DNA from: an uncultured Collinsella sp. | GTDB lineage: Bacteria > Actinomycetota > Coriobacteriia > Coriobacteriales > Coriobacteriaceae | Direction of reading: 5' to 3' | Assembly: GCA_905197385.1 (NCBI GenBank) | Contig: CAJJYO010000001.1 | Location: forward strand, 1 to 27,417 | DNA length: 27,417 bases | In this document: positions 4,328 through 15,859 of the stretch, one piece after another | How positions within the stretch are numbered: position 1 is the first letter of the stretch | How the letters are laid out: each line of letters begins with the position of its first letter | Position numbers and translations under genes: made by a program | Notes under the pieces: model-generated | What the model saw: the letters and a program-made list of their open reading frames with translations, nothing else | Database searches by the model: none | What the model was told of the DNA's origin: nothing

Positions 4328-5086
4328 GTGACCAATCGCGTCAACAATTCACATATTAAAAAGGATTGTCCCACCCCCATCTATATGCAGGTGGTCGACT
4401 ATCTGCGCGAGAACATCGCCTCAGGAGCTTGGGAGCAAGCATCCAAAATCCCGTCGGAAGTCGAGCTCATGAGTACGCTCGGCGTCAGCCGCGGCAGCAT
4501 CAAAAAGGCCATTTCCAAGCTTGTTGATGAGGGCCTGCTTGAGCAAATTCAGGGAAAGGGAACTTACGTTAAGTCAAAAGACATCTCTTTCCCCCTTACA
4601 GAGGGTCTTATCTCTTTCTCCGAATCTCTAATCGAGCAAGGCCTTTCTTTCGAAACAAACATTCTCGATTGCGAAATTCGTAAGTCGGACGAAGATATTT
4701 CCAGACATCTCGGTATTGTCGAAGGTTCTGACTACCTTCATCTCGAGCGAGTGCGCAGCGTTGAGGGTGAACCTGTGATGTTCATCGAAAACAACATCAA
4801 TATGGCGCTTGTCCCAGGTATTGAAACAGCCGACTTTGTTAACGAAGGTCTCTTTGCAATAATCGAGCGGCTCTCAGGCCACCAGATCGAATACTCAAAG
4901 ACCTCCTTTGTGGCAAAGCTCGCGGACACCCAACGCGCGGATGCGCTCGGTCTCTCTACGCAGTCCCCGCTTCTTCAGCAGCTTCAAACAGTCTACTTGG
5001 ACAATGACTCTGCAATTGAATATGCGCGCGTATGGCTTAAATCCAGCAGGTTCCAGCTTGGCACCGTTTTTCAGCGTCGCCATTAA
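4328..5086 (+). CDS. GntR-family (HutC/UTRA subfamily) transcriptional regulator
   Basis: The 252-residue protein has an N-terminal winged helix (about residues 14-80): PIYMQVVDYLRENIASG, then KIPSEVELMSTLGVSRGSIK as recognition region, and LLEQIQGKGTYV as wing. A UTRA effector domain follows (about 90-245), with the typical ISFSESL, LHLERVRSVEGEPVMFIE and LLQQLQTVYLDN segments. UTRA domains commonly bind sugar phosphates or other pathway intermediates and relieve repression. The start is GTG, with AGGAG seven bases upstream. It is convergent with the PTS operon and separated from it only by a terminator, so it is the obvious candidate controller of that operon. Codon use is more AT-rich than in flanking genes. 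Confidence 0.92.
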   Translation: MTNRVNNSHIKKDCPTPIYMQVVDYLRENIASGAWEQASKIPSEVELMSTLGVSRGSIKKAISKLVDEGLLEQIQGKGTYVKSKDISFPLTEGLISFSESLIEQGLSFETNILDCEIRKSDEDISRHLGIVEGSDYLHLERVRSVEGEPVMFIENNINMALVPGIETADFVNEGLFAIIERLSGHQIEYSKTSFVAKLADTQRADALGLSTQSPLLQQLQTVYLDNDSAIEYARVWLKSSRFQLGTVFQRRH

Positions 5087-5172: not shown

Positions 5173-5847
5173 TTAGTCCAGCGCGTCAAACAGCTCCGTA
5201 AGCAACGCTGCCCTGTCATCCGTAATCGCCAGGGCACTCGAAATGCCGGTGCCTTGCGCGCCAAGTCCAATCAAGCGACGAACATCGCCTCCACACCTGA
5301 TTCCCGCTCCCTCCATGATAACGATGTCGGGATTGATGGACCGTACGGCAGCGATGGTCTCTGCGATGTAATCATCGCCGCTTGTATGGCCGGTTCCCAC
5401 AAGGCTGCTCGGCTCGCAAAGAATCACGTCCGGATCCATCGCCGCAACCGCTTTGGACTCAGTCACGCTATCGGCTGCAACAATGGTTAGAATCTCAAGC
5501 TCACGAGCGCGATCGATCGTTGCCGCCAACTTATCAACGGTCAGGGGGTGTGCCGTGTGATTTAGAAAGACAGCTTGAACTCCCGCGCTCTTAAGCGACT
5601 CAAGAGGTGTCAGTCCCATTCCTTTTCCGTCACCGATAAGATCGGCATGCTGCGCTGTGGGAATTGCAAATTTCAAATCCTTCGCAACTGCGCAGAGCTC
5701 GGGAACGGGAGCAGTCCAAAAAATCGAATGATCTCGATCTTTTGCGATTTCATCCGTAAGATGAGCCGCTGCAATTGAATCGTCCGCAAGCAAATAGGTC
5801 TTAGGACTGACCGTGAAAAGTGGCAGTTTTAAATCGGAACGTTTCAT
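5173..5847 (-). CDS. Triosephosphate isomerase family protein (short, archaeal-type), probably a catabolic sugar-phosphate isomerase
   Basis: The 224-residue TIM barrel is the length of archaeal TIMs rather than the usual bacterial ~250. The catalytic residues are recognisable: Lys16 in SPKTY, His97 in LNHTAHPL, and Glu145 in CEPSSLVGTG, followed by the phosphate-gripper glycines (GAGIRCGG, GAQGTGISSAL). Canonical TIMs have HSE(R) after the electrophilic His, and this protein has HTA(H), so the conserved Glu is Ala99. It is the last gene of the PTS series, 48 bp after IIA. It either turns aldolase-derived dihydroxyacetone phosphate into glyceraldehyde 3-phosphate, or acts on another short ketose phosphate, as known for the TIM-like EryH of erythritol catabolism. 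The ATG at 5847 has AAAGGA upstream. Confidence 0.82.
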   Translation of the reverse strand: MKRSDLKLPLFTVSPKTYLLADDSIAAAHLTDEIAKDRDHSIFWTAPVPELCAVAKDLKFAIPTAQHADLIGDGKGMGLTPLESLKSAGVQAVFLNHTAHPLTVDKLAATIDRARELEILTIVAADSVTESKAVAAMDPDVILCEPSSLVGTGHTSGDDYIAETIAAVRSINPDIVIMEGAGIRCGGDVRRLIGLGAQGTGISSALAITDDRAALLTELFDALD

Positions 5848-5895
5848 GAGAACACGTCCTTTCCGACTAATACATGGCCTGCCATACCGAGCGAT

Positions 5896-6249
5896 TTAGC
5901 CGTTGAAGCTAATCTCGATGCCGGTTTCCAGCTTGGGAAGCACGCTTGGTGTCACGAGAACCGTTCCAGGAAGCAGCTCTCGCTCGTCATCGAACGCAAT
6001 GGTTAGATGACCGAGCCCTCCCATGTTCTCGTTCGCAGCTTCACCAAACTCCTTAATCGTGTAGACCTGATCGCCGATGGAAATGGTGCCGCCCTCAGCA
6101 AGCACGTTATCCTCCGTGGGAGTTCCATCGTGAACGACGCAGATGTCGCGCAACTCTGCAGGAGCGGTCGGGCCAAACAGGACCACCATCTTCTCGTTGA
6201 GAAGTTCCTCAACAAACGAGCCGATCTCAGTGACCTTAACCTTGTACAT
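5896..6249 (-). CDS. srlB: PTS glucitol/sorbitol-family EIIA component
   Basis: The 117-residue cytoplasmic protein is close to the 123 of E. coli SrlB. It aligns over the whole family pattern: MYKVKVTEIG at the start, PAELRDICVVHDG, then an LGHLTIAFDDE strand and LLPGTVLV. His40 in CVVHDG matches the phosphorylated His of SrlB. The protein accepts phosphate from HPr and passes it to the IIB domain encoded two genes upstream. It lies 19 bp after gutM in the operon. The substrate need not be sorbitol; the symbol reflects family only. Confidence 0.9.
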   Translation of the reverse strand: MYKVKVTEIGSFVEELLNEKMVVLFGPTAPAELRDICVVHDGTPTEDNVLAEGGTISIGDQVYTIKEFGEAANENMGGLGHLTIAFDDERELLPGTVLVTPSVLPKLETGIEISFNG

Positions 6250-6268
6250 TTGATTTCTCCTATCTTTG

Positions 6269-6652
6269 TTACGCCGCAGGCGCAGTCATTGACCTGTCGA
6301 TAACACGAATAGCCTGGGCAAAAGCATCGTGATAGCTTTCGTTGGCCAGATGGTCTAGGGCGGTCTCGATATTCAGCCCCAGCATCTCGCTCATCTCCGA
6401 AAACTCTGGTTTGAGGGAAAGCCCTTTGAGCTCATAGCAACCGTTAATCACGCCATCATGATCAGTCAGAATCATCACAAACGCCTTTCGGCTAAAACTC
6501 ACCTTGCACATACCCGTGCCCAAGTATCCCTCATGATCGCGAGCGCGCTCATGGATAAGAATGCGCACCCTCTTCCAGTAGCGATACTGGGTGAATGTTC
6601 CTGCAAGCCATACGAGAATAAAGAAGGCTATTGTAATGAGCGCGTTGAGCAT
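6269..6652 (-). CDS. gutM: GutM-family protein (glucitol operon activator type)
   Basis: The 127-residue protein begins with one hydrophobic membrane segment (about residues 3-20, ALITIAFFILVWLAG). A basic stretch follows, then a soluble domain resembling E. coli GutM: GTGMCKVSFSRKAFVMILTDHDGVI, then CYELKGLSLKPEFSEM. GutM was described as an activator of the gut operon. The membrane segment and constant linkage to glucitol-type PTS genes suggest it may instead be an accessory of the transporter. It sits between IIB/C and IIA with gaps of 29 and 19 bp. No DNA-binding motif is visible. Confidence 0.85.
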   Translation of the reverse strand: MLNALITIAFFILVWLAGTFTQYRYWKRVRILIHERARDHEGYLGTGMCKVSFSRKAFVMILTDHDGVINGCYELKGLSLKPEFSEMSEMLGLNIETALDHLANESYHDAFAQAIRVIDRSMTAPAA

Positions 6653-6681
6653 AGTGGGCCTTTCCCTCTTAAAGCTTCAGT

Positions 6682-7701
6682 TTACAGGCCAAAGGACAGT
6701 ACGTAGGCAAGAATAATCTGAATCGGGGTGGTAATCAGCTTGCCAAACAGGAATGCAGGGTAACCGATTTCGATCGTCTCGGGCTTTGCCTCCATGAGAG
6801 TCATGCCAACGGGAGCAAAGTCGGAACCAACCTGGCAGTTGACGGCAAAGAAGCCGGGAAGGGCAAAGTTGGCGGGAATCGTGCCGTTGGCGATTTGGTT
6901 GCCAACAAGGACAGAAAGCACAGAAGCGATGATTGCGCCCGGGCAGATCAAAGGCGAAAGGAACGGGATTGAGCAGAACATGCCAATTGCCAGCATACCG
7001 GGCAGCGAGCCCGCAAGCGGAGTGAGAACGCCGGCGAGAACGTTCGCGAAACCCGTGTAGTTAATAATGCCGATCAGCACCGAGACAAACGCCATAAAGG
7101 GGATGATGTTGCGGATAACATCGTTCACGGTATCGCGCGCAGCCTGGTAGATGATGCTGATAACGCGGCCGACACCGGTGCCGATCTTGGAGACAACGTC
7201 CATGAAGCCGTTAGACTCCTTGGATGCGAGCTCGGCACGTCCCTCAGCGATCTTGGCGTGGACGTTTTCCTTCGTCGTCTCCTCGTGTGCCTTCTCGGCC
7301 TTTACCGGCTCAGCGGGAACATCGGCCGCATCGGCAAGGACGATGCAATCGGGATTGACGTCAGATGCAAAGAGATCCTCGGTGATGAACTGGGCCAGAG
7401 GACCAGACGGAGAACCGGGCTTGATGTTCAGCGTCTTAAGGCCCATCTTGGGATAGGTGCCGCAGCGAGCCACGCCGGCGCAGTCGATGACAACGGCGCA
7501 TGCCTGATCGGTCTCGATCGGGTCCTTAAACTGGTCGTGCGCCTCGGCGCCGGTAAGCTCCGCAATGCGAAGGGCGACCGGGCTGATGCCACCCAGGGTC
7601 ACGCTCAGAACATAAGGCTTCTCGGCCGTGGGGGTAATGATGAGGGGACCGCCCCAACCGTTGCCGCCGTGGGACGCCTTTACGCTTTTGAATTCACTCA
7701 T
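6682..7701 (-). CDS. srlE: PTS glucitol/sorbitol-family EIIB/C component
   Basis: The 339-residue protein has an N-terminal IIB domain (about 1-125) opening with NGWGGPLIITP and containing VIDCAGVARCGTYPK. The phosphocysteine should be one of Cys74 or Cys80. A charged Ala/Glu/Lys linker follows (about 126-165), then a C-terminal membrane part (about 180-339), including IIPFMAFVSVLIGIINYTG and FCSIPFLSPLICPGAIIAS. E. coli SrlE is 319 residues; the extra length is in the linker. Together with the separate IIC protein it forms the sugar channel. AAGGAG precedes the ATG at 7701, and the gap to the IIC gene is 29 bp. Confidence 0.92.
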   Translation of the reverse strand: MSEFKSVKASHGGNGWGGPLIITPTAEKPYVLSVTLGGISPVALRIAELTGAEAHDQFKDPIETDQACAVVIDCAGVARCGTYPKMGLKTLNIKPGSPSGPLAQFITEDLFASDVNPDCIVLADAADVPAEPVKAEKAHEETTKENVHAKIAEGRAELASKESNGFMDVVSKIGTGVGRVISIIYQAARDTVNDVIRNIIPFMAFVSVLIGIINYTGFANVLAGVLTPLAGSLPGMLAIGMFCSIPFLSPLICPGAIIASVLSVLVGNQIANGTIPANFALPGFFAVNCQVGSDFAPVGMTLMEAKPETIEIGYPAFLFGKLITTPIQIILAYVLSFGL

Positions 7702-7730
7702 GATTTAGACTCTCCTTTTGCGCTGAACTA

Positions 7731-8276
7731 CTAGGCGGCAAGCTTAGCTTCGTTGCGCTTCTTCATGATGAGGTACAGCTTCTCGGTGACAATGCCCTTG
7801 ATCAGGCAGACGATTAGACCAACAATGAGGAAGCGGATAGCAAGCTCGGAGGAGTTCTTTCCCAGTGCCTCGTAGCCGGCCGAGATACCAAGCCAAACAA
7901 AGAGCTCGGAAGAGTTAGCGTGCGGGAAAAGGCCAACGATGGGGTGCATCATGGACACGACCGCATCGTAGAATGCGGGCTTGTAGTCCTCCTCGACAAA
8001 CACACCAAAGGTGTATGCCATCGGATTGCAGAGGAAGAAAGTGCAAAGGAACGGGATGAGGGTATAGCGGAGAACTGCATACTTGGTGCACTTCTTCATG
8101 AACCCATAGACACGCTCCTCGCCGATCAGCTGGATGACTGCCTTGATCGTAAGGATCAGACAGATCAGCATTGGGATCATGCCCGTAATAAACGAGGCAA
8201 ACTGATCACCAGCCGCATTAAACAGGCCGGTAAAGCCCTCCGCAAGGAAGATAAGGAAATCGTTTACTGCTCCCAT
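7731..8276 (-). CDS. srlA: PTS glucitol/sorbitol-family EIIC component
   Basis: The 181-residue integral membrane protein is similar in size to E. coli SrlA (187). Recognisable segments are NDFLIFLAEGFTGLFNAAG, ITGMIPMLICLILTIKAVI, LIPFLCTFFLCNPMAYTFG and the HANSSELFVWLGISAG loop. Two ATGs occur in frame, at 8282 and 8276. AAGGAG ends one base before the first, too close, and seven bases before the second, so 8276 is the better start. It is the first gene of the transporter series. The 183-bp gap upstream carries two GTCTA half-sites and no clear terminator, so it may be both an internal promoter and a read-through junction from the kinase gene. Confidence 0.92.
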   Translation of the reverse strand: MGAVNDFLIFLAEGFTGLFNAAGDQFASFITGMIPMLICLILTIKAVIQLIGEERVYGFMKKCTKYAVLRYTLIPFLCTFFLCNPMAYTFGVFVEEDYKPAFYDAVVSMMHPIVGLFPHANSSELFVWLGISAGYEALGKNSSELAIRFLIVGLIVCLIKGIVTEKLYLIMKKRNEAKLAA

Positions 8277-8362
8277 TTTCATTCTCCTTAGTTAATGTTC
8301 GCTACTTCTATCGTTCTACCTGAGCGCCCCCTCCTCCTTTTCAATCAGCCATATACGCTCAT

Positions 8363-8384
8363 GGTTGTCTACGGTTGTCTATAT
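8363..8384. promoter_or_regulatory. Tandem GTCTA half-sites upstream of the PTS genes
   Basis: GGTTGTCTA occurs twice as a direct repeat (8363-8371 and 8373-8381) with 10-bp periodicity, the second extending to TATAT. The half-site TGTCTA/GTCTATA matches the arms of the palindromes upstream of the aldolase and HAD genes, but the arrangement is direct rather than inverted. The rest of 8277-8459 holds no gene. Confidence 0.5.
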
Positions 8385-8459
8385 CTTACAAAGGGACCGC
8401 TCTTCGAGTTACCTTCTCGCATTCCTTTCGGTGAACGGTAGATTTTACAAGACAAACGG

Positions 8460-9935
8460 CTACGCGCTATTTAGCTCATAGATAATTTGGAGTGCCTCAA
8501 ATATACGCATATACCTGCTAAAACGCGCGTCGTAGAGCTCATGGGCCCTGTCGTTTTTTTCAATGGAATCGAGTTTTCTGCAGACCCCTGCGGCAACCGC
8601 CGTCAAGTCTTGGCCGCAAGAAGCCGAGAGGGCCAGCAGCGCCGCGCCCTGACCGGCGCCGGAGGATTCCATCCGCACCATATCGACCCCCAACACGTTG
8701 GAGAGCGCTTGCGCCCAAAAATCGTTCTTGGCCCCTCCTCCAACGAGCCTGATGCTGCGCCACTCTTCCGAATGGTCCACGGACTCCTTGAGCTCCCTTA
8801 AGGCATACGCCGTGCCCTCCATCAGAGCCCTTTCGAGCTCGGAACGAGTCGTGTCAAGATCAAGCCCCAGAAAGGCACCGCGTACCGACGGGCAACCGTG
8901 CAGGACTTTTTCTCCCGATAGATGGGGGTAGAACATGAGATCCCTCATGTCGTAGAAGGGGTCCTCGACGGCCTTGTCCTCCAAATCGTAGGACTCACTG
9001 CTTAGAATCTGCCCGTACCACCATTCCTTGGCACCGCCGCACGATCTGATACTCAGCTGAATTTGGGTCTTAAGGGTATTTCCCCACTTGAACAACACGG
9101 GCTTGCCAACAGCCGGAAGGTCAACTCCCTCAGATGAATACATCAGCACGCCGCTTGTTCCAAGTGAGATGGTGGGGACGCCCTCCAAAAGGCATCCCGT
9201 GCAGATCGCTGCCGCGGGATTGTCGCCCGTTCCCCTCACGATCATGGCACCTGCGGGAATTCCCGTCTCGCTTGAAGCTCTCTCAACCACGGTCCCAATT
9301 ACGGCATCAGAAGGCTCGACAACGGGAAGCAACGACTCGGGGATTCCGAAATGCTCGCAGACCTCACCGATCCAAGCTTGCCTCTCGTTATCGTAGAGCC
9401 CTGTTGTCGAAGCCCCGCAATAGTCCGTACCAGCACGCCCGCCAAACTTGAGAGCAATCCAATCTGAAACCGAAAGAAACACTTCGCTCTTTGAAAGGCC
9501 CTCAGGATTATTCTTAGCTATCCATGCAAGGTTAATCGCCGGAACCCCAGTCGAAAGAAAGCTGGCGACCCTAGGATAGCCCGCAGACAGCGCCCACTGC
9601 TTCTCGGTAAAGACGGCGTCAATCGTGCGCTGGTCGTTCCACATTATGGCGGGACACGTTGGCACCCCATCGGCATCGATCAAGACCGTCGTGTGCATCT
9701 GCCCGGTAGCGCCAACGCCTTTTATTAGAGACAGGTCAACTTTCTCTCCAAGCAGGGAGCATGCAGAGCAAATGGCGATCCACCATGTCTCGGGATTGAT
9801 TTCCCGCCAACCGGGATGAGGCTCAGAGCACTCGTAAGCCTCGCTCGCAGTCGCGACAACTTTTCCGCCTTCATCAATGCACGTGAGCTTCACCGATGAC
9901 GTGCCCACATCGACACCAAGGTAGAGCGCACCCAT
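8460..9935 (-). CDS. FGGY-family carbohydrate kinase (xylulokinase-like)
   Basis: The protein is about 491 residues, normal for FGGY kinases. The N-terminal ATPase lobe starts YLGVDVGTSSVKL. The XylB-like substrate loops GATGQMHTTVLID and AIMWNDQRT follow. RGTGDNPAAA carries the likely catalytic Asp, and TISLGTSGVLMYS and LVGGGAKNDFWAQAL are the second-lobe phosphate and adenosine motifs. It should phosphorylate a ketose or polyol; the exact sugar is not deducible. An ATG at 9950 is also possible, but it lacks a good ribosome site. The ATG at 9935 has GAGG five bases upstream and gives the family's usual N-terminus. The gene follows the aldolase gene closely (15-30 bp). Confidence 0.88.
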   Translation of the reverse strand: MGALYLGVDVGTSSVKLTCIDEGGKVVATASEAYECSEPHPGWREINPETWWIAICSACSLLGEKVDLSLIKGVGATGQMHTTVLIDADGVPTCPAIMWNDQRTIDAVFTEKQWALSAGYPRVASFLSTGVPAINLAWIAKNNPEGLSKSEVFLSVSDWIALKFGGRAGTDYCGASTTGLYDNERQAWIGEVCEHFGIPESLLPVVEPSDAVIGTVVERASSETGIPAGAMIVRGTGDNPAAAICTGCLLEGVPTISLGTSGVLMYSSEGVDLPAVGKPVLFKWGNTLKTQIQLSIRSCGGAKEWWYGQILSSESYDLEDKAVEDPFYDMRDLMFYPHLSGEKVLHGCPSVRGAFLGLDLDTTRSELERALMEGTAYALRELKESVDHSEEWRSIRLVGGGAKNDFWAQALSNVLGVDMVRMESSGAGQGAALLALSASCGQDLTAVAAGVCRKLDSIEKNDRAHELYDARFSRYMRIFEALQIIYELNSA

Positions 9936-9965
9936 TATCGCCTCATCCATGTTCGTAATTCCGCG

Positions 9966-10808
9966 CTACTCAGCGATGCCGTTGATGGCGCGCGTCGTCT
10001 TGTAAGCAACGTCCGCAACTGCCTTACGTGTATCAATCAGTACCTTGGCGAGATTATGCTCGTTGTTGTTTGCCTCGTACGCCCTGCCAACCGTCGTGAT
10101 GTAGGCCTTGCGCAGGTCGCTTGCGATGTTGATCTTGGACATCTTGTGTGGCTGCATAGCGTGGATGGTCTCATAGGGAATGCCCGAGCCACCATGAAGA
10201 ACGAGGGGACACGGAGACACCTCGGCAAGCTTCTCAAGCAGCGGCAAATCGATGCGCGGCGTATCCTCAAGGCCGTGAACGTTGCCGATAGACACGGCCA
10301 ACAGGTCGCAGCCCGTGCGCTCCACAAACTCGCAAACCTGATCGGGGTCGGTCTTAAGATCCGCCTCGGAAACATGATCGTCTTCTTTGCCCTTGATGGC
10401 ACCGAGCTCAGCCTCAACGGGCACGCCGTAGCAATGGCAGTAGTCAACTGCCTGGCGCGAGAAGCGAATGTTCTCCTCAAAGGGCAACGCGGCACCGTCG
10501 ATCATAACGGAGGTAAAGCCGGCCTGAACCGCCTGTCGAACATCCTCGAGCGTCTTGCCGTGGTCAAGATGCAGACACGTGGGAACGATATAGTCCTCCG
10601 CCGCGCGTTTAACGATAGAGGCGATCATGCCGTAATCGGAAAGCTTAACGTTGGTAGGGGCGATCTGGAGGATGCCCGGCATGCCGGCCCTCTGCAATCC
10701 ATCCAGGATACCTAAGGTCATCTCCATGTTCGTCGTGTTATATGCGGGAAGGAGCCATCCATTCTTGCGTGCAATCTGGATCAGCTCAGTCGAAGTTACA
10801 ACTGCCAT
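9966..10808 (-). CDS. Class II fructose/tagatose-bisphosphate-type aldolase
   Basis: The 280-residue zinc aldolase is of the GatY/KbaY/FbaA group. CLHLDHGKTLED supplies catalytic Asp82 and zinc ligand His83. FTSVMIDGAALPFEENI is the hallmark substrate loop. EAELGAIKGKEDD follows, with NVHG (His178) and LHGGSGIP (His205) completing the metal site. KINIASDLR is the phosphate-binding end. It cleaves a ketose (bis)phosphate to dihydroxyacetone phosphate plus an aldehyde; which ketose is unknown. GGAGG lies four bases before the ATG. It is the first gene of the aldolase-kinase unit, behind two tandem operator-like palindromes. Confidence 0.92.
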   Translation of the reverse strand: MAVVTSTELIQIARKNGWLLPAYNTTNMEMTLGILDGLQRAGMPGILQIAPTNVKLSDYGMIASIVKRAAEDYIVPTCLHLDHGKTLEDVRQAVQAGFTSVMIDGAALPFEENIRFSRQAVDYCHCYGVPVEAELGAIKGKEDDHVSEADLKTDPDQVCEFVERTGCDLLAVSIGNVHGLEDTPRIDLPLLEKLAEVSPCPLVLHGGSGIPYETIHAMQPHKMSKINIASDLRKAYITTVGRAYEANNNEHNLAKVLIDTRKAVADVAYKTTRAINGIAE

Positions 10809-10862
10809 GATTCCTCCAACCGGGTTACGGCAATTCGAGTTGAGTTTTCGTTCCAGATACTT

Positions 10863-10903
10863 ATATAGACGTCTATGTACCTGTTTATAGACGACTATAT
10901 ACC
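10863..10903. promoter_or_regulatory. Two tandem TATAGAC-GTCTATA operators and candidate promoter of the aldolase-kinase unit
   Basis: The first site, ATAGACGTCTAT (10865-10876), is a perfect 12-bp palindrome. The second (10886-10899, TATAGACGACTATA) is the same with one mirrored mismatch. Their centres are 22 bp apart, about two helical turns. On the minus strand, TAAACA, a 16-bp spacer and TATAAG could be -35/-10, placing the first palindrome on the core promoter as expected for a repressor. Confidence 0.6.
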
Positions 10904-10942
10904 TTTTTGATTTACGCGCAAAGCACTAAATGCCTCGAATCG

Positions 10943-10980
10943 AAAAAAGGGGCTGCCGAGAAGCACTCGACAGCCCCTTT
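10943..10980 (-). terminator. Terminator of the HAD gene
   Basis: AAAGGGGCTG (10946-10955) plus CGAG pair with CTCG plus CAGCCCCTTT (10971-10980), with one mismatch and a 5-base loop. On the minus strand the stem is followed by six T. It separates the upstream HAD gene from the aldolase operon. Confidence 0.9.
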
Positions 10981-10992
10981 CATTTGGCATGC

Positions 10993-11649
10993 TTACCCCA
11001 ACGCCCCATTTGCCAGCATATCGGTAACGTCGTTTAGGCTCGAAACTATTGCCGTGGCCAATCTTTCCATCTCATCTGTTGGCTCAGAGAGATCGGGGAC
11101 CATAACAGTGCAAAATCCTCCTGCAAATCCCGCGCGCACCCCGTTATAGGAATCCTCTAAAACGAGGGATTTCTGCGGTGAAGCTCCTAGCTCATCCGCC
11201 GCTTTCAAAAAGACGTCTGGGTAAGGCTTGGCGTGTTCGACCTCAACACCAGAGACGATCGAATCGAAATAAGGGAGTATTCCTCCCCTTATCAAATTTG
11301 CCTCGATCATTTTTCTGCTCGATGATGAAGCAACTGCCATCGGAATTCCCTCAGCCTGAAGATAGTCGAGAAGCCGATCTAATCCGAGTTTCTTCTCTGC
11401 GCCCTGAGCCAGCGCTTCATGCGCTATTTCGTAAAAACGGTCACCAAACGCTTGAGAATCGACCTCATCGCCATACCACTCGCGAATAATGGACACCGCT
11501 TCCGATCCATTGGTGCCACGCATGGCGTCCGCAAGGCCCTCTTTGCATTCAACCTCAAACTCAATTGCGGTTTTGGGCCAGCAGGAAGCCCAAATCGGCT
11601 CAGTATCGAACATGAGCCCGTCCATATCGAAGATAACCGCCTCGAACAT
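10993..11649 (-). CDS. HAD-superfamily phosphatase (beta-phosphoglucomutase-like), co-regulated with the PTS block
   Basis: The 218-residue protein starts MFEAVIFDMDGLMFDTEP, with Asp8 and Asp10. A four-helix cap follows (about 16-80), then motif II AVASSSS, the motif III Lys in HAKPYPD and motif IV LVLEDSYNG. AGGAGG lies four bases before the ATG, which decides the start over longer in-frame options. The gene is monocistronic, with its own terminator and a GTCTA palindrome in its leader. It is therefore probably expressed with the aldolase, kinase and PTS genes. It could dephosphorylate a PTS-delivered sugar phosphate or detoxify dead-end phosphates; this is inference. Confidence 0.88.
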   Translation of the reverse strand: MFEAVIFDMDGLMFDTEPIWASCWPKTAIEFEVECKEGLADAMRGTNGSEAVSIIREWYGDEVDSQAFGDRFYEIAHEALAQGAEKKLGLDRLLDYLQAEGIPMAVASSSSRKMIEANLIRGGILPYFDSIVSGVEVEHAKPYPDVFLKAADELGASPQKSLVLEDSYNGVRAGFAGGFCTVMVPDLSEPTDEMERLATAIVSSLNDVTDMLANGALG

Positions 11650-11666
11650 ATTGCCTCCTTGTTCAA

Positions 11667-11688
11667 GTAGACGTCTATATACGTATAT
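11667..11688. promoter_or_regulatory. Operator-like palindromes upstream of the HAD gene
   Basis: TAGACGTCTA (11668-11677) is a perfect 10-bp palindrome identical to the core of the aldolase operator. Overlapping it is a second perfect palindrome, ATATACGTATAT (11677-11688). Both lie 18-40 bp upstream of the HAD start codon, where a repressor would block transcription. Confidence 0.6.
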
Positions 11689-11777
11689 TCTATCAAAGGA
11701 GGTCTTTTTTTCTTTCACGGCAGCATGAAAAGGAGTCCGTCCCAATAAAAGCCGACAGGCGCCTCGTCTGCCAAAAA

Positions 11778-11808
11778 CACCACGATGGAGGCTGTCCCCA
11801 TCGTGGTG
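11778..11808 (-). terminator. Second minus-strand hairpin terminator downstream of the EF-G paralogue
   Basis: CACCACGATGG (11778-11788) pairs perfectly with CCATCGTGGTG (11798-11808) across 9 bases. On the minus strand five T follow. Between it and the next terminator, 11822-11841 read on the minus strand could encode DPRGRAK-stop, like the GRAK end of the EF-G paralogue. The stretch 11689-11777 contains no gene that I can support. Confidence 0.6.
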
Positions 11809-11850
11809 GTTGCCTTACGTCGATTTACTTAGCGCGGCCCCGGGGATCAA

Positions 11851-11887
11851 AAAAGGCCGCCCCGGTTATTACCCAGGGCGGCCTTTT
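11851..11887 (-). terminator. Terminator of the EF-G-like gene
   Basis: AAAAGGCCGCCC (11851-11862) pairs with GGGCGGCCTTTT (11876-11887). On the minus strand a six-T run follows the stem. It lies 34 bases after the EF-G-like stop codon. Confidence 0.9.
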
Positions 11888-11920
11888 CGTCAGCACCTAC
11901 ATTGCAGGCAAAGCCCCTCG

Positions 11921-13996
11921 CTACTTGGCGCGACCCTCCTCATAGCGCTCGACCAGCTTGGCCTGAACGTCATAGGGAACCTGCTCGTAGCCGGCGGGTT
12001 TCATGGTAAAGTCGCCCGTGCCGCGCGTGATAGAGCGCAGACGCGTCGAGTAATCCGTCAGCTCGGCCAGCGGCGCTTGGGCAATGACCACGGTGTCTCC
12101 GCGCTCATCGGTCTCCATGCCCGTCACGCGACCGCGCGAGGCCGAGATGTCGCCCATCACGGCGCCGGCGTAGCTCTCGGGGATAGTCACCGTGATTTCC
12201 TCGATGGGCTCCAGCACCACCGGGTCAGCATCGGCGCATGCCTTGCGCAGGCCGATGCGAGCCGCCGCGCGGAACGCCATCTCGTTGGAGTCGACGCTGT
12301 GATACGAGCCGTCATACACCGCGACACGAATGCCCGTGAGCGGATAGCCGGCAATAATACCGTCCTTCATGGTCTCCTGGACGCCCTTGTCCACGGCGGG
12401 GATGAGCGAGCGCGGAATACGGCCGCCCACGACTTCATCCACAAACTCGTAGCCGTCGCTCGTGCCGTCGGGCCCAATGAGCGGCTCAACGCGCAGCCAG
12501 CAGTCGCCATACTGACCGGCACCGCCAGTCTGCTTCTTGTGGCGGCCCTGGGCACTCGCCGTGCGGCGGATGGTCTCGCGATACGGAATGCGGATCGGCA
12601 CGCTCTTGGCAGCGACCTTGGTGCGGTCCTCCAGACGGTTGAGCAGCACCGAAACCTGCGCCTCACCAACGGCGGAGATAATGGTCTGGCCGGTCTCCTC
12701 GTCGCGGTCGATGCTCATGGTCGGATCGGCCTTGCAGGCCTTCTCGATAAACGTGTAGAGCTTCTCTTCGTCCCCGCGATTCTCGGCCTCGATGGCAATG
12801 CGGTACTGAGAGTTGGGAAACTTAAACGCCGCAGCCTCGACCTTACCGGTAATGGAGAGTGTATCGCCCGTCTCGGCAGCCAGCTTGGGCGCCACGATGA
12901 TGTCACCGGCATAGGCGTGACCGACCTCGGTCATGTCGCGGCCGCACATCACATACAGGTGAGCCAGACGATCGCTCTTGCGGGTACGCGCGTTGATCAG
13001 CTCAAGGCCCGGCTCAAGCGTGCCCGCCAGCACCTTGATAAAGCTGATGCGGCCCTGCTGCGGATCGGCCAGCGTCTTAAACACAAACGCCACCGGACGG
13101 TCATCGTCGCTCGAGATCTTAAGCGAATCGCCGTCGATGAGCGGCATCTCGCCGTAGTCCGTCGGCGCCGGGAAGTACGTGGCGATGTCGTCCATCAGCG
13201 AGTTGACGCCCTGCTCCTTAATGCAATCGCCCGCAAAGACCGGCACAAAGATGCGCTCGGCAATCGCCTTCGACAGCAGGCCCTCAAGCTCCTCCTGCGT
13301 CAGCGTCTCCTCGCCTTCCAGGTACTTCATCATCAGCTCATCGTCGGCCTCGGCCACCAGCTCACACAGATGGTCATGGGCTTCCTCGGCCTGGGCACGA
13401 TACTCCTCGGGAATCTCCGACTCAACGGCTTCGGTGCCGTTGCAATGGCGCGCCTTCATGCGCACCAGGTCGATGATGCCATCAAAGTCCTCGCCCTCGC
13501 CCCAGGGAAGGGTCACGGCGCCCAATCGCGTGCCAAAGCGCTCCTGCAGCAGGTCCATCGTGGTCGCAAAGCTGGCCTCGGAGCGCGACAGGCGGTTTAC
13601 GAACACCGCACGCGCCAAGCGCAGGTCCTCGGCGGCATACCAGAGCTTAACCGTCGTAGGCTGCGGGCCGGCCTCGGCGTCGACCACAAACAGAGCCGTC
13701 TCGCAGACGCTCATCGCGGCAAAGGCGTCGCCGATAAAATCGGGGTAGCACGGGGCATCGAGCACATTGATGCGCGCGCCCTTCCAGTCGATCGGCGCAA
13801 TGGTCGTCGAGATGGAAAACGCACGCTTGACCTCTTCGGGGTCATAGTCGAGCGTAGGCTTGGTGCCGTCGTGGCCGCCCAGACGGGCGGTCTTACCGGA
13901 AAGGTGGAGCATGGCTTCGGCGAGTGAAGTCTTGCCCACCCCGCCTTGGCCTACGAGCACCACGTTCCTTACGTTACCGGTCTTGGGAGCACCCAT
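11921..13996 (-). CDS. Elongation factor G-like GTPase paralogue (FusA2-type)
   Basis: The 691-residue protein has the full EF-G domain order: G domain (about 1-270), beta-barrel domain II (about 295-375, with PVAFVFKTLADPQQGRISFI), domain III, domain IV (YRETIRRTA, QTGGAGQYGDCWL) and domain V ending GYEQVPYDVQAKLVERYE. The P-loop is GQGGVGKTS (16-24) rather than AH(I/V)DxGKTT. G3 is DAPCYPDF (80-87) rather than DTPGHVDF, so the catalytic His is Tyr84. The G4 NKxD is NRLSR (134-138). It is therefore not the housekeeping EF-G, and its GTPase cycle is probably altered. The ATG at 13996 has AAGGAGG five bases upstream, better than an in-frame start 111 bases earlier. It stands alone between terminators. 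Confidence 0.88.
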   Translation of the reverse strand: MGAPKTGNVRNVVLVGQGGVGKTSLAEAMLHLSGKTARLGGHDGTKPTLDYDPEEVKRAFSISTTIAPIDWKGARINVLDAPCYPDFIGDAFAAMSVCETALFVVDAEAGPQPTTVKLWYAAEDLRLARAVFVNRLSRSEASFATTMDLLQERFGTRLGAVTLPWGEGEDFDGIIDLVRMKARHCNGTEAVESEIPEEYRAQAEEAHDHLCELVAEADDELMMKYLEGEETLTQEELEGLLSKAIAERIFVPVFAGDCIKEQGVNSLMDDIATYFPAPTDYGEMPLIDGDSLKISSDDDRPVAFVFKTLADPQQGRISFIKVLAGTLEPGLELINARTRKSDRLAHLYVMCGRDMTEVGHAYAGDIIVAPKLAAETGDTLSITGKVEAAAFKFPNSQYRIAIEAENRGDEEKLYTFIEKACKADPTMSIDRDEETGQTIISAVGEAQVSVLLNRLEDRTKVAAKSVPIRIPYRETIRRTASAQGRHKKQTGGAGQYGDCWLRVEPLIGPDGTSDGYEFVDEVVGGRIPRSLIPAVDKGVQETMKDGIIAGYPLTGIRVAVYDGSYHSVDSNEMAFRAAARIGLRKACADADPVVLEPIEEITVTIPESYAGAVMGDISASRGRVTGMETDERGDTVVIAQAPLAELTDYSTRLRSITRGTGDFTMKPAGYEQVPYDVQAKLVERYEEGRAK

Positions 13997-14239
13997 GATG
14001 ACCTCCTTGCAGGGCCGCGCGCATTGCGCGACGCCAACGGGGAGAGTTCGCGGTCGGTGCCATCCCGGGAGCAGCATGGTCGGCAGCCGAGACGACTCAC
14101 CCTCCAAATGTCCTATGCCACCACCCTACCCTCACGGGCGACCGTCCATGCACACCTTTCGGCACACGTATGAATACAGGCGGCGAGAGGAAGAGACAAG
14201 CTTGTGAGGCGATTATTGAACCCCGTCGATGCAAACAAA
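13997..14239. other. Leader and promoter region of the EF-G-like gene
   Basis: No gene is supportable in this non-coding stretch. On the minus strand, TTGTCT with a 17-bp spacer and TATTCA (about 14165-14195) is a weak promoter candidate. That would leave a leader of roughly 170 nt that can form small GC-rich hairpins, such as GCGC-AAT-GCGC near 14030. Confidence 0.3.
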
Positions 14240-14273
14240 AAGCCGCCACAGACCGTAAGACCTGCGGCGGCTT
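14240..14273 (-). terminator. Terminator of the amino acid ABC operon
   Basis: AAGCCGCC (14240-14247) pairs with GGCGGCTT (14266-14273), with an inner CAG/CTG extension. On the minus strand TTTTTGTTT follows. It lies 34 bases after the ATPase stop. Confidence 0.88.
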
Positions 14274-14306
14274 CGCCTCAATTAATAGTTGAGTAAATAC
14301 CTGAGC

Positions 14307-15071
14307 CTATCCCTCGATACGGCTCAAGAACTCACGGGTGCGCTGCTCACGCGGATGGTCGATGACCTGCTCGGCAGGACCCTCCTCGACAATGCGGCCG
14401 CCATCCATAAAGACCACGCGGTCGGCAACATCGCGCGCAAACTGCATTGCGTGGGTCACAATCACCATCGTCATATTCTGCGCGGCAAGGTCTTTAATGA
14501 CACGCAGCACCTCGGCCGTCAGCTCGGGATCGAGTGCCGAGGTCGGCTCGTCAAAGAACAGGATCTCTGGATCGAGCGCCAAGGCGCGGGCGATACTCAC
14601 ACGCTGTTGCTGGCCGCCCGAAAGCTCACACGGAACCTTATTCTCGTTGCCCATAAGCCCCATCTGAGCAATCAATTCATACGCACGAGCTTCCGCCTGC
14701 TCGCGCGGTCGCTTAAGCACGCGGATCGGCGCGTCGATGATGTTTTTCATCACGGTATAGTGCGGGAACAGATTGTAGTTCTGGAACACCAGGCCAAACC
14801 GCGAGCGCGCCTGTTTGGGCACGTCGCCTTTCGCATAGACCGCACCCGGCCCCGCGTCCGTCGCAACGGCAAGGTCGCCAAACGAAAGCGAGCCACCGTC
14901 GAGTGTCTCGAGCAGCGTAGCGCAGCGCAGCAGCGTGGACTTACCGCCACCCGAAGGCCCGATAATCGCCACGACCTCACCGCGCTTGACTTCGAGTGAG
15001 ATATCCTTGAGCACCTCATTGCCGCCAAACGCCTTACGCGCGCTTTCGATTTTCATCACTGAGTTAGTCAT
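14307..15071 (-). CDS. Polar amino acid ABC transporter ATP-binding protein
   Basis: The 254-residue ATPase is of the GlnQ/HisP class. It has Walker A GPSGGGKST (38-46), Q-loop VFQNYNLFPH, signature LSGGQQQRVSIARAL, Walker B EILFFDEPTSALDPE and switch His in IVTHAMQFA. It powers amino acid import with the permease and lipoprotein upstream. The ATG at 15071 overlaps the permease stop (ATGACTAA), and no Shine-Dalgarno is visible. This implies translational coupling. A second in-frame ATG at 15056 is possible. The insertion around VATDAGPGAVYAKGDVPKQA before the Q-loop is longer than in GlnQ. Confidence 0.93.
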   Translation of the reverse strand: MTNSVMKIESARKAFGGNEVLKDISLEVKRGEVVAIIGPSGGGKSTLLRCATLLETLDGGSLSFGDLAVATDAGPGAVYAKGDVPKQARSRFGLVFQNYNLFPHYTVMKNIIDAPIRVLKRPREQAEARAYELIAQMGLMGNENKVPCELSGGQQQRVSIARALALDPEILFFDEPTSALDPELTAEVLRVIKDLAAQNMTMVIVTHAMQFARDVADRVVFMDGGRIVEEGPAEQVIDHPREQRTREFLSRIEG

Positions 15072-15717
15072 GATAATAGTCCAGCTTCTTTTCGGCAGCG
15101 CCCAGCAGCATCTCGACCACAAAGTTAAAGACCCAGTAGATCAACGCCGCAATCGCAAACGGCACCATGCTCACCTGCGAGGCGACCAGCGCCTTGGCGG
15201 TCGAGAACATCTCACCCACACCGATGGCGAACGCCAGCGACGTGTCCTTGACCAGTGTGATGATCTCGTTGCCCATCGCCGGCAGAATACGCTTGGCGAC
15301 CTGCGGCATCACGATATACAGAAACGTCTGCAGACGCGAGTAGCCCAGCACCTCGGCGGCCTCATATTGACCGCGCGGAATCGACTGCAGGCCCGAGCGA
15401 TAGATCTCGGCAAAGTAGCCGGCGTAGTTGATGATGAATGCCACGACGCACGCCGTCCATTTGGAATCGGGCGTGAGCGAGATGCCAAACACGTAGTACG
15501 GGGCAAAGTAGATGGCAAACATCTGCAGCATGAGCGGCGTACCGCGCATGACCGAGATATAGATGCGCGCAATCCAGCGGAGCGGCGCAATTTTACTCAT
15601 GCGCATAAACGCCACGGGGATTCCCAGCGGAATCGACCCCAGCAGCGTCAGCACAAACAACTGCAAGCTGACCAAGAATCCCTGGCCAAGCATCTGCATC
15701 ATGACCTGAATAGACAA
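15064..15717 (-). CDS. Polar amino acid ABC transporter permease
   Basis: The protein is about 217 residues, with about five membrane segments in the HisMQ/GlnP pattern. It includes VSLQLFVLTLLGSIPLGIPV, the MRGTPLMLQMF motif and the EAA loop YEAAEVLGYSRLQTFLYIVM. The TTG at 15717 is chosen because GAAAGAGAG lies upstream at normal distance; the first ATG is at 15702. An earlier TTG at 15756 lacks a ribosome site. A 150-bp gap containing a long hairpin separates it from the binding-protein gene. Only one permease is encoded, so the channel is presumably a homodimer. Confidence 0.9.
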   Translation of the reverse strand: MSIQVMMQMLGQGFLVSLQLFVLTLLGSIPLGIPVAFMRMSKIAPLRWIARIYISVMRGTPLMLQMFAIYFAPYYVFGISLTPDSKWTACVVAFIINYAGYFAEIYRSGLQSIPRGQYEAAEVLGYSRLQTFLYIVMPQVAKRILPAMGNEIITLVKDTSLAFAIGVGEMFSTAKALVASQVSMVPFAIAALIYWVFNFVVEMLLGAAEKKLDYYHD

Positions 15718-15772
15718 CCTAAGCTCTCTTTCGCGACAACAGAACAGCAAACCCAATGCTAAAGCGGGTTTT

Positions 15773-15859
15773 CCAGGTGCTCGAGTTTGCCGTGAAAGAG
15801 GAGTGCCGCGTACTAAATGTACGCAAGCGACGGTTTGAACGGCAAAATCGGGTGCCTGG
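15773..15859. repeat. Long nested hairpin between binding-protein and permease genes
   Basis: Bases 15773-15793 pair with 15839-15859: 20 of 21 positions, including three G-U pairs, starting CCAGG/CCTGG and ending TTTGCCGT/ACGGCAAA. Inside, GCGTAC (15808-15813) and GTACGC (15819-15824) form a second perfect stem. No T-run follows on the minus strand, so this is not a classic terminator. It probably acts as an intercistronic mRNA structure or is a dispersed repeat. Confidence 0.65.

Follow-up and report, generated by a model that had tools for sequence, protein, structure and literature searches.

A glucitol-type phosphotransferase operon with an FGGY kinase, a class II aldolase and a TIM-like protein, and no dehydrogenase, in an uncultured Collinsella

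The srl (gut) operon of Escherichia coli, which serves D-glucitol, pairs phosphotransferase system (PTS) subunits and GutM with the dehydrogenase gene srlD and the regulator gene srlR. Fru- and tag-type pathways (FruA/FruK with fructose-bisphosphate aldolase, TagTH/TagK with GatY) combine a fructose-like PTS with one further kinase, of the PfkB family, and a class II aldolase. The D-tagatose route of Klebsiella and Bacillus licheniformis uses a PTS, a ketose 1-phosphate kinase and a class II bisphosphate aldolase (PMC10101011). Here we describe a gene block in a 27,417-nt stretch of an uncultured Collinsella sp. (contig CAJJYO010000001.1, positions 1–27,417, forward strand; hereafter the window). 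Its PTS subunits and GutM are homologous to those of srl (25–40% identity), whereas an FGGY kinase, a class II aldolase and a triosephosphate isomerase (TIM)-like protein stand in place of an srlD-like dehydrogenase, and a GntR/UTRA regulator in place of srlR. The block resembles fru/tag-type pathways in joining a PTS, one further kinase and a class II aldolase, yet its PTS is of the glucitol (Gut) type, its kinase belongs to the FGGY family and the TIM-like protein is extra. The block is a conserved operon of known parts in an unusual combination. Both this combination and the kinase's proposed role look new; among open-licence PMC papers we recognised no published description, though the block may be described elsewhere.

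On balance, we are slightly inclined to read the block as an operon that catabolises a rare ketose without any dehydrogenase, a ketohexose being the most likely class. The Gut-type PTS, whose subunit set is complete, would import the sugar and phosphorylate one end, and the FGGY kinase (type A, see below) would place a second phosphate on the opposite end of the PTS product. Judging by its family and active site, the aldolase would cleave the ketose bisphosphate formed in this way, giving dihydroxyacetone phosphate (DHAP) and a glyceraldehyde phosphate. The TIM-like protein would process triose phosphate, and the GntR regulator would control the block via TATAGACGTCTATA-type sites.

Gene content and recurrence of the block

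Seven minus-strand genes at 5173–10808 encode the TIM-like protein, IIA, GutM, IIBC, IIC, the FGGY kinase and the class II aldolase, with a HAD phosphatase gene beyond (10993–11649); Pfam and NCBIfam concur on the block's assignments (Table 1). The gene set that an earlier note had read from the letters alone (Gut PTS, FGGY kinase, aldolase, TIM homologue and HAD protein on one strand) is present in full. Its remark that a dehydrogenase is missing holds for all scanned products of the block, and none was seen in the rest of the window, where the list of open reading frames was read by eye and models were run on part of the frames.

The set of FGGY kinase, IIC, IIBC, GutM, IIA and TIM-like protein recurs in three further genomes, two coriobacterial (L143 in G151, L144 in G244) and one Enterococcus (L170 in G477), and therefore represents a real unit, which spans Actinomycetota and Bacillota. 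Since the PTS subunits match SrlA, SrlE and SrlB and the gene set recurs elsewhere, a chance origin is excluded. Gene order in G151 is FGGY–IIC–IIBC–GutM–IIA–TIM with a GntR gene behind, and in G244 the aldolase lies in front, as in the window. Identities between L170 and the window are 62% for IIC, 65% for IIBC, 31% for GutM, 34% for the FGGY kinase, 57% for the TIM-like protein, 52% for the aldolase and 50% for GntR; GntR relatives adjoin the Gut blocks of L143 (63%) and L144 (65%) as well. Among 395 genomes from the order, two (G151, G244) have a TIM-like match at 74–83% identity; matches of any kind (E≤1e-12) occurred in 47 of the 395, those beyond G151 and G244 at 37–44%. The G151 protein (genome 97% complete) is identical, apart from its first residue, to one named Atopobium fossor, and that of L170 matches one named Candidatus Enterococcus ferrettii at every residue. 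No dehydrogenase gene was seen in the Gut units of L143, L144 and L170, and sorbitol-6-phosphate dehydrogenase in particular is absent from the block by models and was not seen in the other three units.

Kinase number, aldolase family and an E. coli sister operon

For comparison, 25 regions (the window and 24 others) were read by gene calling and BLAST, comprising all places with an NF005943 aldolase above the cut-off in five of the searches, one place below it, L036, L037 and E. coli. Transporter and dehydrogenase types were determined with Pfam for examples of each kind, the other loci being labelled from similar translations; of the 80 loci in the seed-search set, L031–L037 were examined, and the remainder match at 40% or less.

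The puzzle raised in the earlier note, an FGGY kinase behind a PTS that already delivers a sugar phosphate, is genuine: the arrangement is seen in 23 PTS-fed units. Counted in same-strand runs, one FGGY kinase each was found in four Gut units (window, L143, L144, L170), 13 galactitol-type (Gat) units (L143, L144, L111, L112, L176, L177, L178, L182, L158, L169, L184, L032, L186) and six mannose-type (Man) units (L171, L179, L180, L181, L183, L185). The count leaves out a gene of the L184 run that encodes a GlpK (57% identical to the E. coli protein) and lies ~8.4 kb from the kinase, takes the Man label of L181, whose contig ends before any PTS gene, from its near twin L180, and includes the L143 Gut run, which has no aldolase, and L186, whose kinase and aldolase lie in neighbouring runs. 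In contrast, all four ATP-binding cassette (ABC) transporter-fed loci (L034–L037) have at least two FGGY genes beside the aldolase; in L034, L035 and L037, the additional genes include one RhaB-like and two beside a xylose-isomerase-like gene (by eye). The PTS therefore seems to replace one of two kinases, which is the pattern expected if two phosphates are added per sugar. The comparison supports two phosphorylations followed by aldol cleavage of a bisphosphate as the simplest chemistry, and second phosphorylation of the PTS product would be the simplest answer to the puzzle, one that was not among the proposals of the earlier note.

In a kinase tree of 43 rows (frames >800 residues dropped; one FGGY gene of L037, lying within a longer open frame, omitted), the window kinase falls into a clade of 11 rows from Gut units, Man units and L034 (type A; support 100/100), which adjoins an XylB-like group. 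Type B, distant from type A, comprises 15 rows from Gat units plus Microbacterium and Arthrobacter. The block kinase shares the FGGY family and the GQMH and GDN motifs with XylB, its sister group, but scores below the XylB cut-off (TIGR01312; 320.9 vs. 380.25 bits) and shows clade-wide changes around these motifs. All 11 type A rows carry T74, T79, S125, T174, T233, K275 and Q290 in place of the A, G, M, G, G, A and S, respectively, of XylB; three of the seven changes fall at the GQMH and GDN motifs. These changes are suggestive of a substrate other than that of XylB.

The window aldolase passes the NF005943 (PRK07998) cut-off with 441 vs. 364 bits and, like all rows aligned, keeps D82, H83, E134, H178 and H205, to which we assign metal and catalytic roles. 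Of the 395 genomes from the order, 11 have family members above the cut-off; four further draws gave 3/246, 2/291, 0/198 (one below the cut-off) and 2/197 genomes, figures that provide no background rates because these four draws were centred on genomes picked for carrying the gene. NF005943 aldolases occur with FGGY kinases and four kinds of transporter (Gut, Gat and Man PTS, and ABC), and their tree tracks taxa, not transporters: the Enterococcus Gut copy clusters with the lactobacillal Gat copies of L169 and L184 (95/93), and the Gut copies from coriobacteria fall within a coriobacterial group of Gat and Man copies (93/97). In G151, the single NF005943 match (E≤1e-90) sits in an adjoining Gat-type operon and the Gut operon has none, so that the latter presumably borrows the Gat operon's aldolase, unless a more distant aldolase serves. 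Since the tree follows taxa and the G151 Gut block lacks its own copy, the comparison suggests that the Gut, Gat and Man routes may converge on one kind of bisphosphate.

Several observations weigh against a kinase and an aldolase acting in this way. The loci counted above stem from aldolase-seeded searches and are mutually related, making the counts neither random nor independent; the extra FGGY genes of L034, L035 and L037 may serve other routes, and the second kinase of L034 lies outside the type B clade. In Man-type units, which encode a zinc-dependent dehydrogenase, kinase A may act after oxidation. T79 also occurs in three xylulokinase-like proteins beside the aldolase in L035–L037 (though not in the pair next to a xylose-isomerase-like gene), and every one of the five xylulokinase-like proteins aligned has S173; hence not every change is particular to type A. 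On the aldolase side, R261, a candidate for the arginine that holds the distal phosphate, is replaced by K, E, I or V in other family members, so that bisphosphate binding lacks residue-level backing, and G151 has lower-scoring class II aldolase candidates that might serve its Gut block. Finally, we know of no FGGY kinase that phosphorylates a sugar phosphate.

A sister operon in E. coli provides the best anchor for the substrate. With the aldolase as sole query, its gene was detected in 1617 of the 5426 complete genomes of this species. In two annotated strains (L173 5737–11336, L188 27844–33443), an operon between nikR and yhhJ encodes GntR, galactitol-type PTS IIA, IIB and IIC, an FGGY kinase, HPr and a class II aldolase. 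It is present in CFT073, where the kinase gene is annotated as frameshifted, and missing in K-12, which has rhsB there instead. Like the block, the operon combines an aldolase of the same family (60% identity) with a PTS and one FGGY kinase, and has no dehydrogenase; unlike the block, it has a Gat-type PTS, a type B kinase and no TIM-like protein. We take it to be the cluster that Ha et al. (2022) reportedly describe for D-tagatose. D-Tagatose, D-psicose and L-sorbose each support growth of E. coli Nissle and not of K-12, with L-sorbose use attributed to the sor operon (PMC7924626). PMC11907403 cites a study of a cluster for D-tagatose from B2 strains.

Two side observations concern the Man units. 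Beside the aldolase operon, L180 (12232–18068) and L181 (2548–7877) encode a Man-type PTS with epimerase-like, dehydrogenase-like and SIS-like proteins, apparently a separate sugar route (by eye). A zinc-ribbon-like protein of ~180–200 residues follows kinase A in L171 (9973–10521; DUF4428), L179 (9258–9851) and L183 (3477–4073).

The TIM-like protein, operator-like sites and neighbouring features

The window TIM-like protein passes the cut-off of the archaeal-type model NF003302 (142.3 vs. 132 bits) and, in common with the archaeal-type TIMs 1hg3 and 1w0m, keeps the catalytic K, H and E. It differs from them in carrying S at position 11 and, as a coriobacterial trait, A at position 97, in lying within a PTS operon and in that related genomes encode another TIM; canonical TIM, from which we assume the numbering and importance of these positions, has N and E. 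Among 58 homologues, 52 were long enough; together with the window and the loci read they gave 34 distinct close sequences (57–100% identity) and 28 distant ones (32–43%). Active-site K, H and E and S11 are found in 34/34 close sequences, and position 97 is A in 31 (coriobacterial) and E in three Enterococcus-type sequences, which weakens E97 loss as a family-wide mark. In all 28 distant sequences, position 11 is N or G and position 97 is E.

The protein was found in all four Gut units and in none of the Gat, Man or ABC loci read. A strong TIM match lies elsewhere in five of five genomes tested, three of them with the block, and a role as the sole TIM of the host was therefore rejected for these relatives. 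The TIM-like group of other Coriobacteriales at 37–44% identity belongs to a different cluster: of 13 places fetched (L150, L151, L154 and L156 unannotated, L153 poorly annotated), eight entered an enzyme search (L145–L149, L152, L155, L157), which found an FGGY kinase in 0/8 loci and a fructose-bisphosphate aldolase (FBA)-like aldolase in 7/8 (not L147). Within this group, L146, L155 and L157 (~8400–15800) share a cluster of GntR, TIM-like protein (40–42%), UPF0047, Gat-type IIB and IIC, a small membrane protein, Aldolase_II, FBA-like aldolase and IIA, with no FGGY kinase and no dehydrogenase seen.

Two TATAGACGTCTATA-like sites with one mismatch each lie 56–91 bases upstream of the aldolase gene, and one with two mismatches upstream of the HAD gene; 0.01 hits at ≤2 mismatches are expected per window by chance. 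Further sites were seen in L143 (one mismatch before IIC, three before FGGY), in L170 (one mismatch, between IIA and IIC) and in L144 (three mismatches, before the aldolase). As the pattern was picked from upstream stretches already read, only the HAD site and the L143 IIC site were found afterwards. In 17 other loci scanned, every site had three or more mismatches, and in several the weak hits were about as many as chance predicts.

Elsewhere in the window, positions 1918–2796 encode a LarE-type sulfur transferase (TIGR00268; 214 vs. 150 bits), with no further lar gene noticed in the window, and an elongation factor G-like protein (NF009381; 768 bits) adjoins the block at 11921–14107.

Table 1. 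Features of the block and its surroundings (window coordinates)
Feature	Positions	Strand	Evidence or remark
GntR/UTRA regulator	4328..5086	+	PF00392, PF07702; tail to tail (convergent) with block
TIM-like isomerase, short archaeal type, altered pocket residues	5173..5847	-	PF00121 7e-11
PTS IIA, glucitol family	5896..6249	-	PF03829 1.1e-33; 32% to E. coli SrlB
GutM-like protein	6269..6652	-	PF06923 7.7e-9; 25% to E. coli GutM
PTS IIBC, glucitol family	6682..7701	-	PF03612, PF07663; 40% to E. coli SrlE
PTS IIC, glucitol family	7731..8282	-	PF03608 1.8e-66; 39% to E. coli SrlA
FGGY kinase, type A	8460..9950	-	PF00370/PF02782
Class II aldolase, family NF005943 (PRK07998)	9966..10808	-	PF01116 2e-82
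Two operator-like sites, TATAGACGTCTATG and TATAGACGACTATA	10864..10899		upstream of aldolase
Predicted intrinsic terminator of HAD gene	10949..10977	-	hairpin, then T run
HAD phosphatase, own transcription unit (predicted)	10993..11649	-	PF13419
Operator-like site upstream of HAD	11666..11689		AGTAGACGTCTATA (2 mismatches) overlapping TATATACGTATATT (3 mismatches)

Alternative routes and implications

The TIM-like protein raises the possibility, which we consider unlikely, that the ketose is L-configured at C5, with L-sorbose as the prime candidate; the aldolase would then release DHAP and L-glyceraldehyde 3-phosphate (L-GAP), and the TIM-like protein would isomerise L-GAP to DHAP. A whole redox-neutral L-ketohexose route of this kind, to which we give the same low credence, would run from L-sorbose 1-phosphate, the PTS product (C6 of D-glucitol being C1 of L-sorbose), through L-sorbose 1,6-bisphosphate, made by the FGGY kinase (D-xylulose and L-sorbose have the same C3/C4), to DHAP and L-GAP, which a TIM-derived L-GAP isomerase would pass to glycolysis. 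The confinement of the TIM-like protein to Gut units among the loci read, with another TIM in the host, and S11 in every close sequence fit such a route. We take Enterococcus raffinosus, Ca. E. ferrettii, which carries the block, and E. gilvus, the name on one TIM-like relative, to form one sorbose-using species group. A dedicated isomerase would account for both the presence of the TIM-like protein and its residue changes, since L-GAP is described as an unnatural, toxic compound that YghZ removes in E. coli (PMC10971088). E. raffinosus is reported to be sorbose-positive (PMC9030019), and strains of E. innesii, E. casseliflavus, E. gallinarum, E. faecalis and E. faecium are sorbose-negative (PMC8744253). 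However, enterococcal sorbose use may rest on an ordinary sor operon, E97 is lost in the coriobacterial sequences and kept in the three Enterococcus-type ones, and Gut and Gat aldolases look interchangeable, which requires tolerance at C5. A different upstream role for the TIM-like protein, rather improbable in our view, would be to move the carbonyl of the PTS product (2-ketose 1-phosphate to 3-ketose), as EryH does in a reaction of this type on tetruloses, for use by the kinase and the aldolase. It would thereby replace the zinc-dependent dehydrogenase of Man units, and indeed, among PTS-fed type A units, zinc-dependent alcohol dehydrogenase (Zn-ADH; six Man units) and TIM-like protein (four Gut units) never occur together. 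Yet TIM folds bind small substrates, and we know of no natural 3-ketose PTS substrate.

Gut-family PTS mostly transport polyols, and the PTS might yield a polyol phosphate that an unlinked dehydrogenase oxidises, in which case the block would be a standard polyol route that includes a second kinase; this, too, we hold to be unlikely. In its favour, all six Man-type sister units pair a Zn-ADH (mostly identified by eye; L171 by Pfam) with the same kind of kinase and aldolase, Gat units L032 (Gilliamella; Pfam) and L186 (same order) also carry a zinc-dependent dehydrogenase, and possible partners are encoded in G477 (fourteen Zn-ADH and eleven SrlD relatives) and G244 (one weak Zn-ADH relative and three relatives of SrlD, a short-chain dehydrogenase/reductase (SDR)). 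By contrast, none of the four Gut units has a dehydrogenase, and a search of G151 for these two families found no relative of the L179 Zn-dehydrogenase (E≤1e-25) and none of SrlD (E≤1e-15). On this evidence a ketose is the best-fitting substrate, although the test is clean in a single genome, and of the two explanations offered in the earlier note, the one by which a ketose needs no oxidation fits G151. The other had the HAD protein strip the PTS phosphate, the FGGY kinase rephosphorylate the free sugar elsewhere and the aldolase split a monophosphate, and we regard it as highly improbable. The operator-like site before the HAD gene in the window would agree with it, as would the best NCBIfam matches, which include bifunc_MtlD (phosphatase part) and hexitol phosphatase HxpB, all below the cut-off. 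However, the PTS phosphate would be wasted; among the four Gut units, that of the window alone is flanked by such a HAD gene in the same orientation, the operons of L143, L144 and L170 having none (L144 has a 25% relative adjacent on the opposite strand); and in G151 and G244 the closest relatives are encoded at other genomic sites, with no good operator-like site in the loci fetched for the closest one in G151 (L206) and one in G244 (L205). A HAD of this kind as a conserved pathway enzyme was thus rejected. In addition, a predicted terminator hairpin 3′ of the HAD gene and 5′ of the aldolase gene (46-nt stretch, −29.5 kcal/mol, z −6.3; missing from the consensus scan's listing) makes the HAD gene a neighbouring transcript that may share the regulator. 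In the window, it may be co-regulated with the block, perhaps as a sugar-phosphate relief phosphatase.

If PTS, FGGY kinase and aldolase do act in succession on a ketose and its phosphates, FGGY kinases would have the further task of phosphorylating PTS products a second time, which we otherwise know only of PfkB-type kinases. Labels like xylulokinase would in that case be misleading in gut Coriobacteriia, in Enterococcus and, where the distant type B kinase is concerned, in E. coli. The TIM-like protein would be a case of a triosephosphate isomerase redirected to another substrate, possibly L-GAP. More generally, the comparison would offer a rule for reading gene neighbourhoods, namely that a PTS substitutes for one of two kinases.

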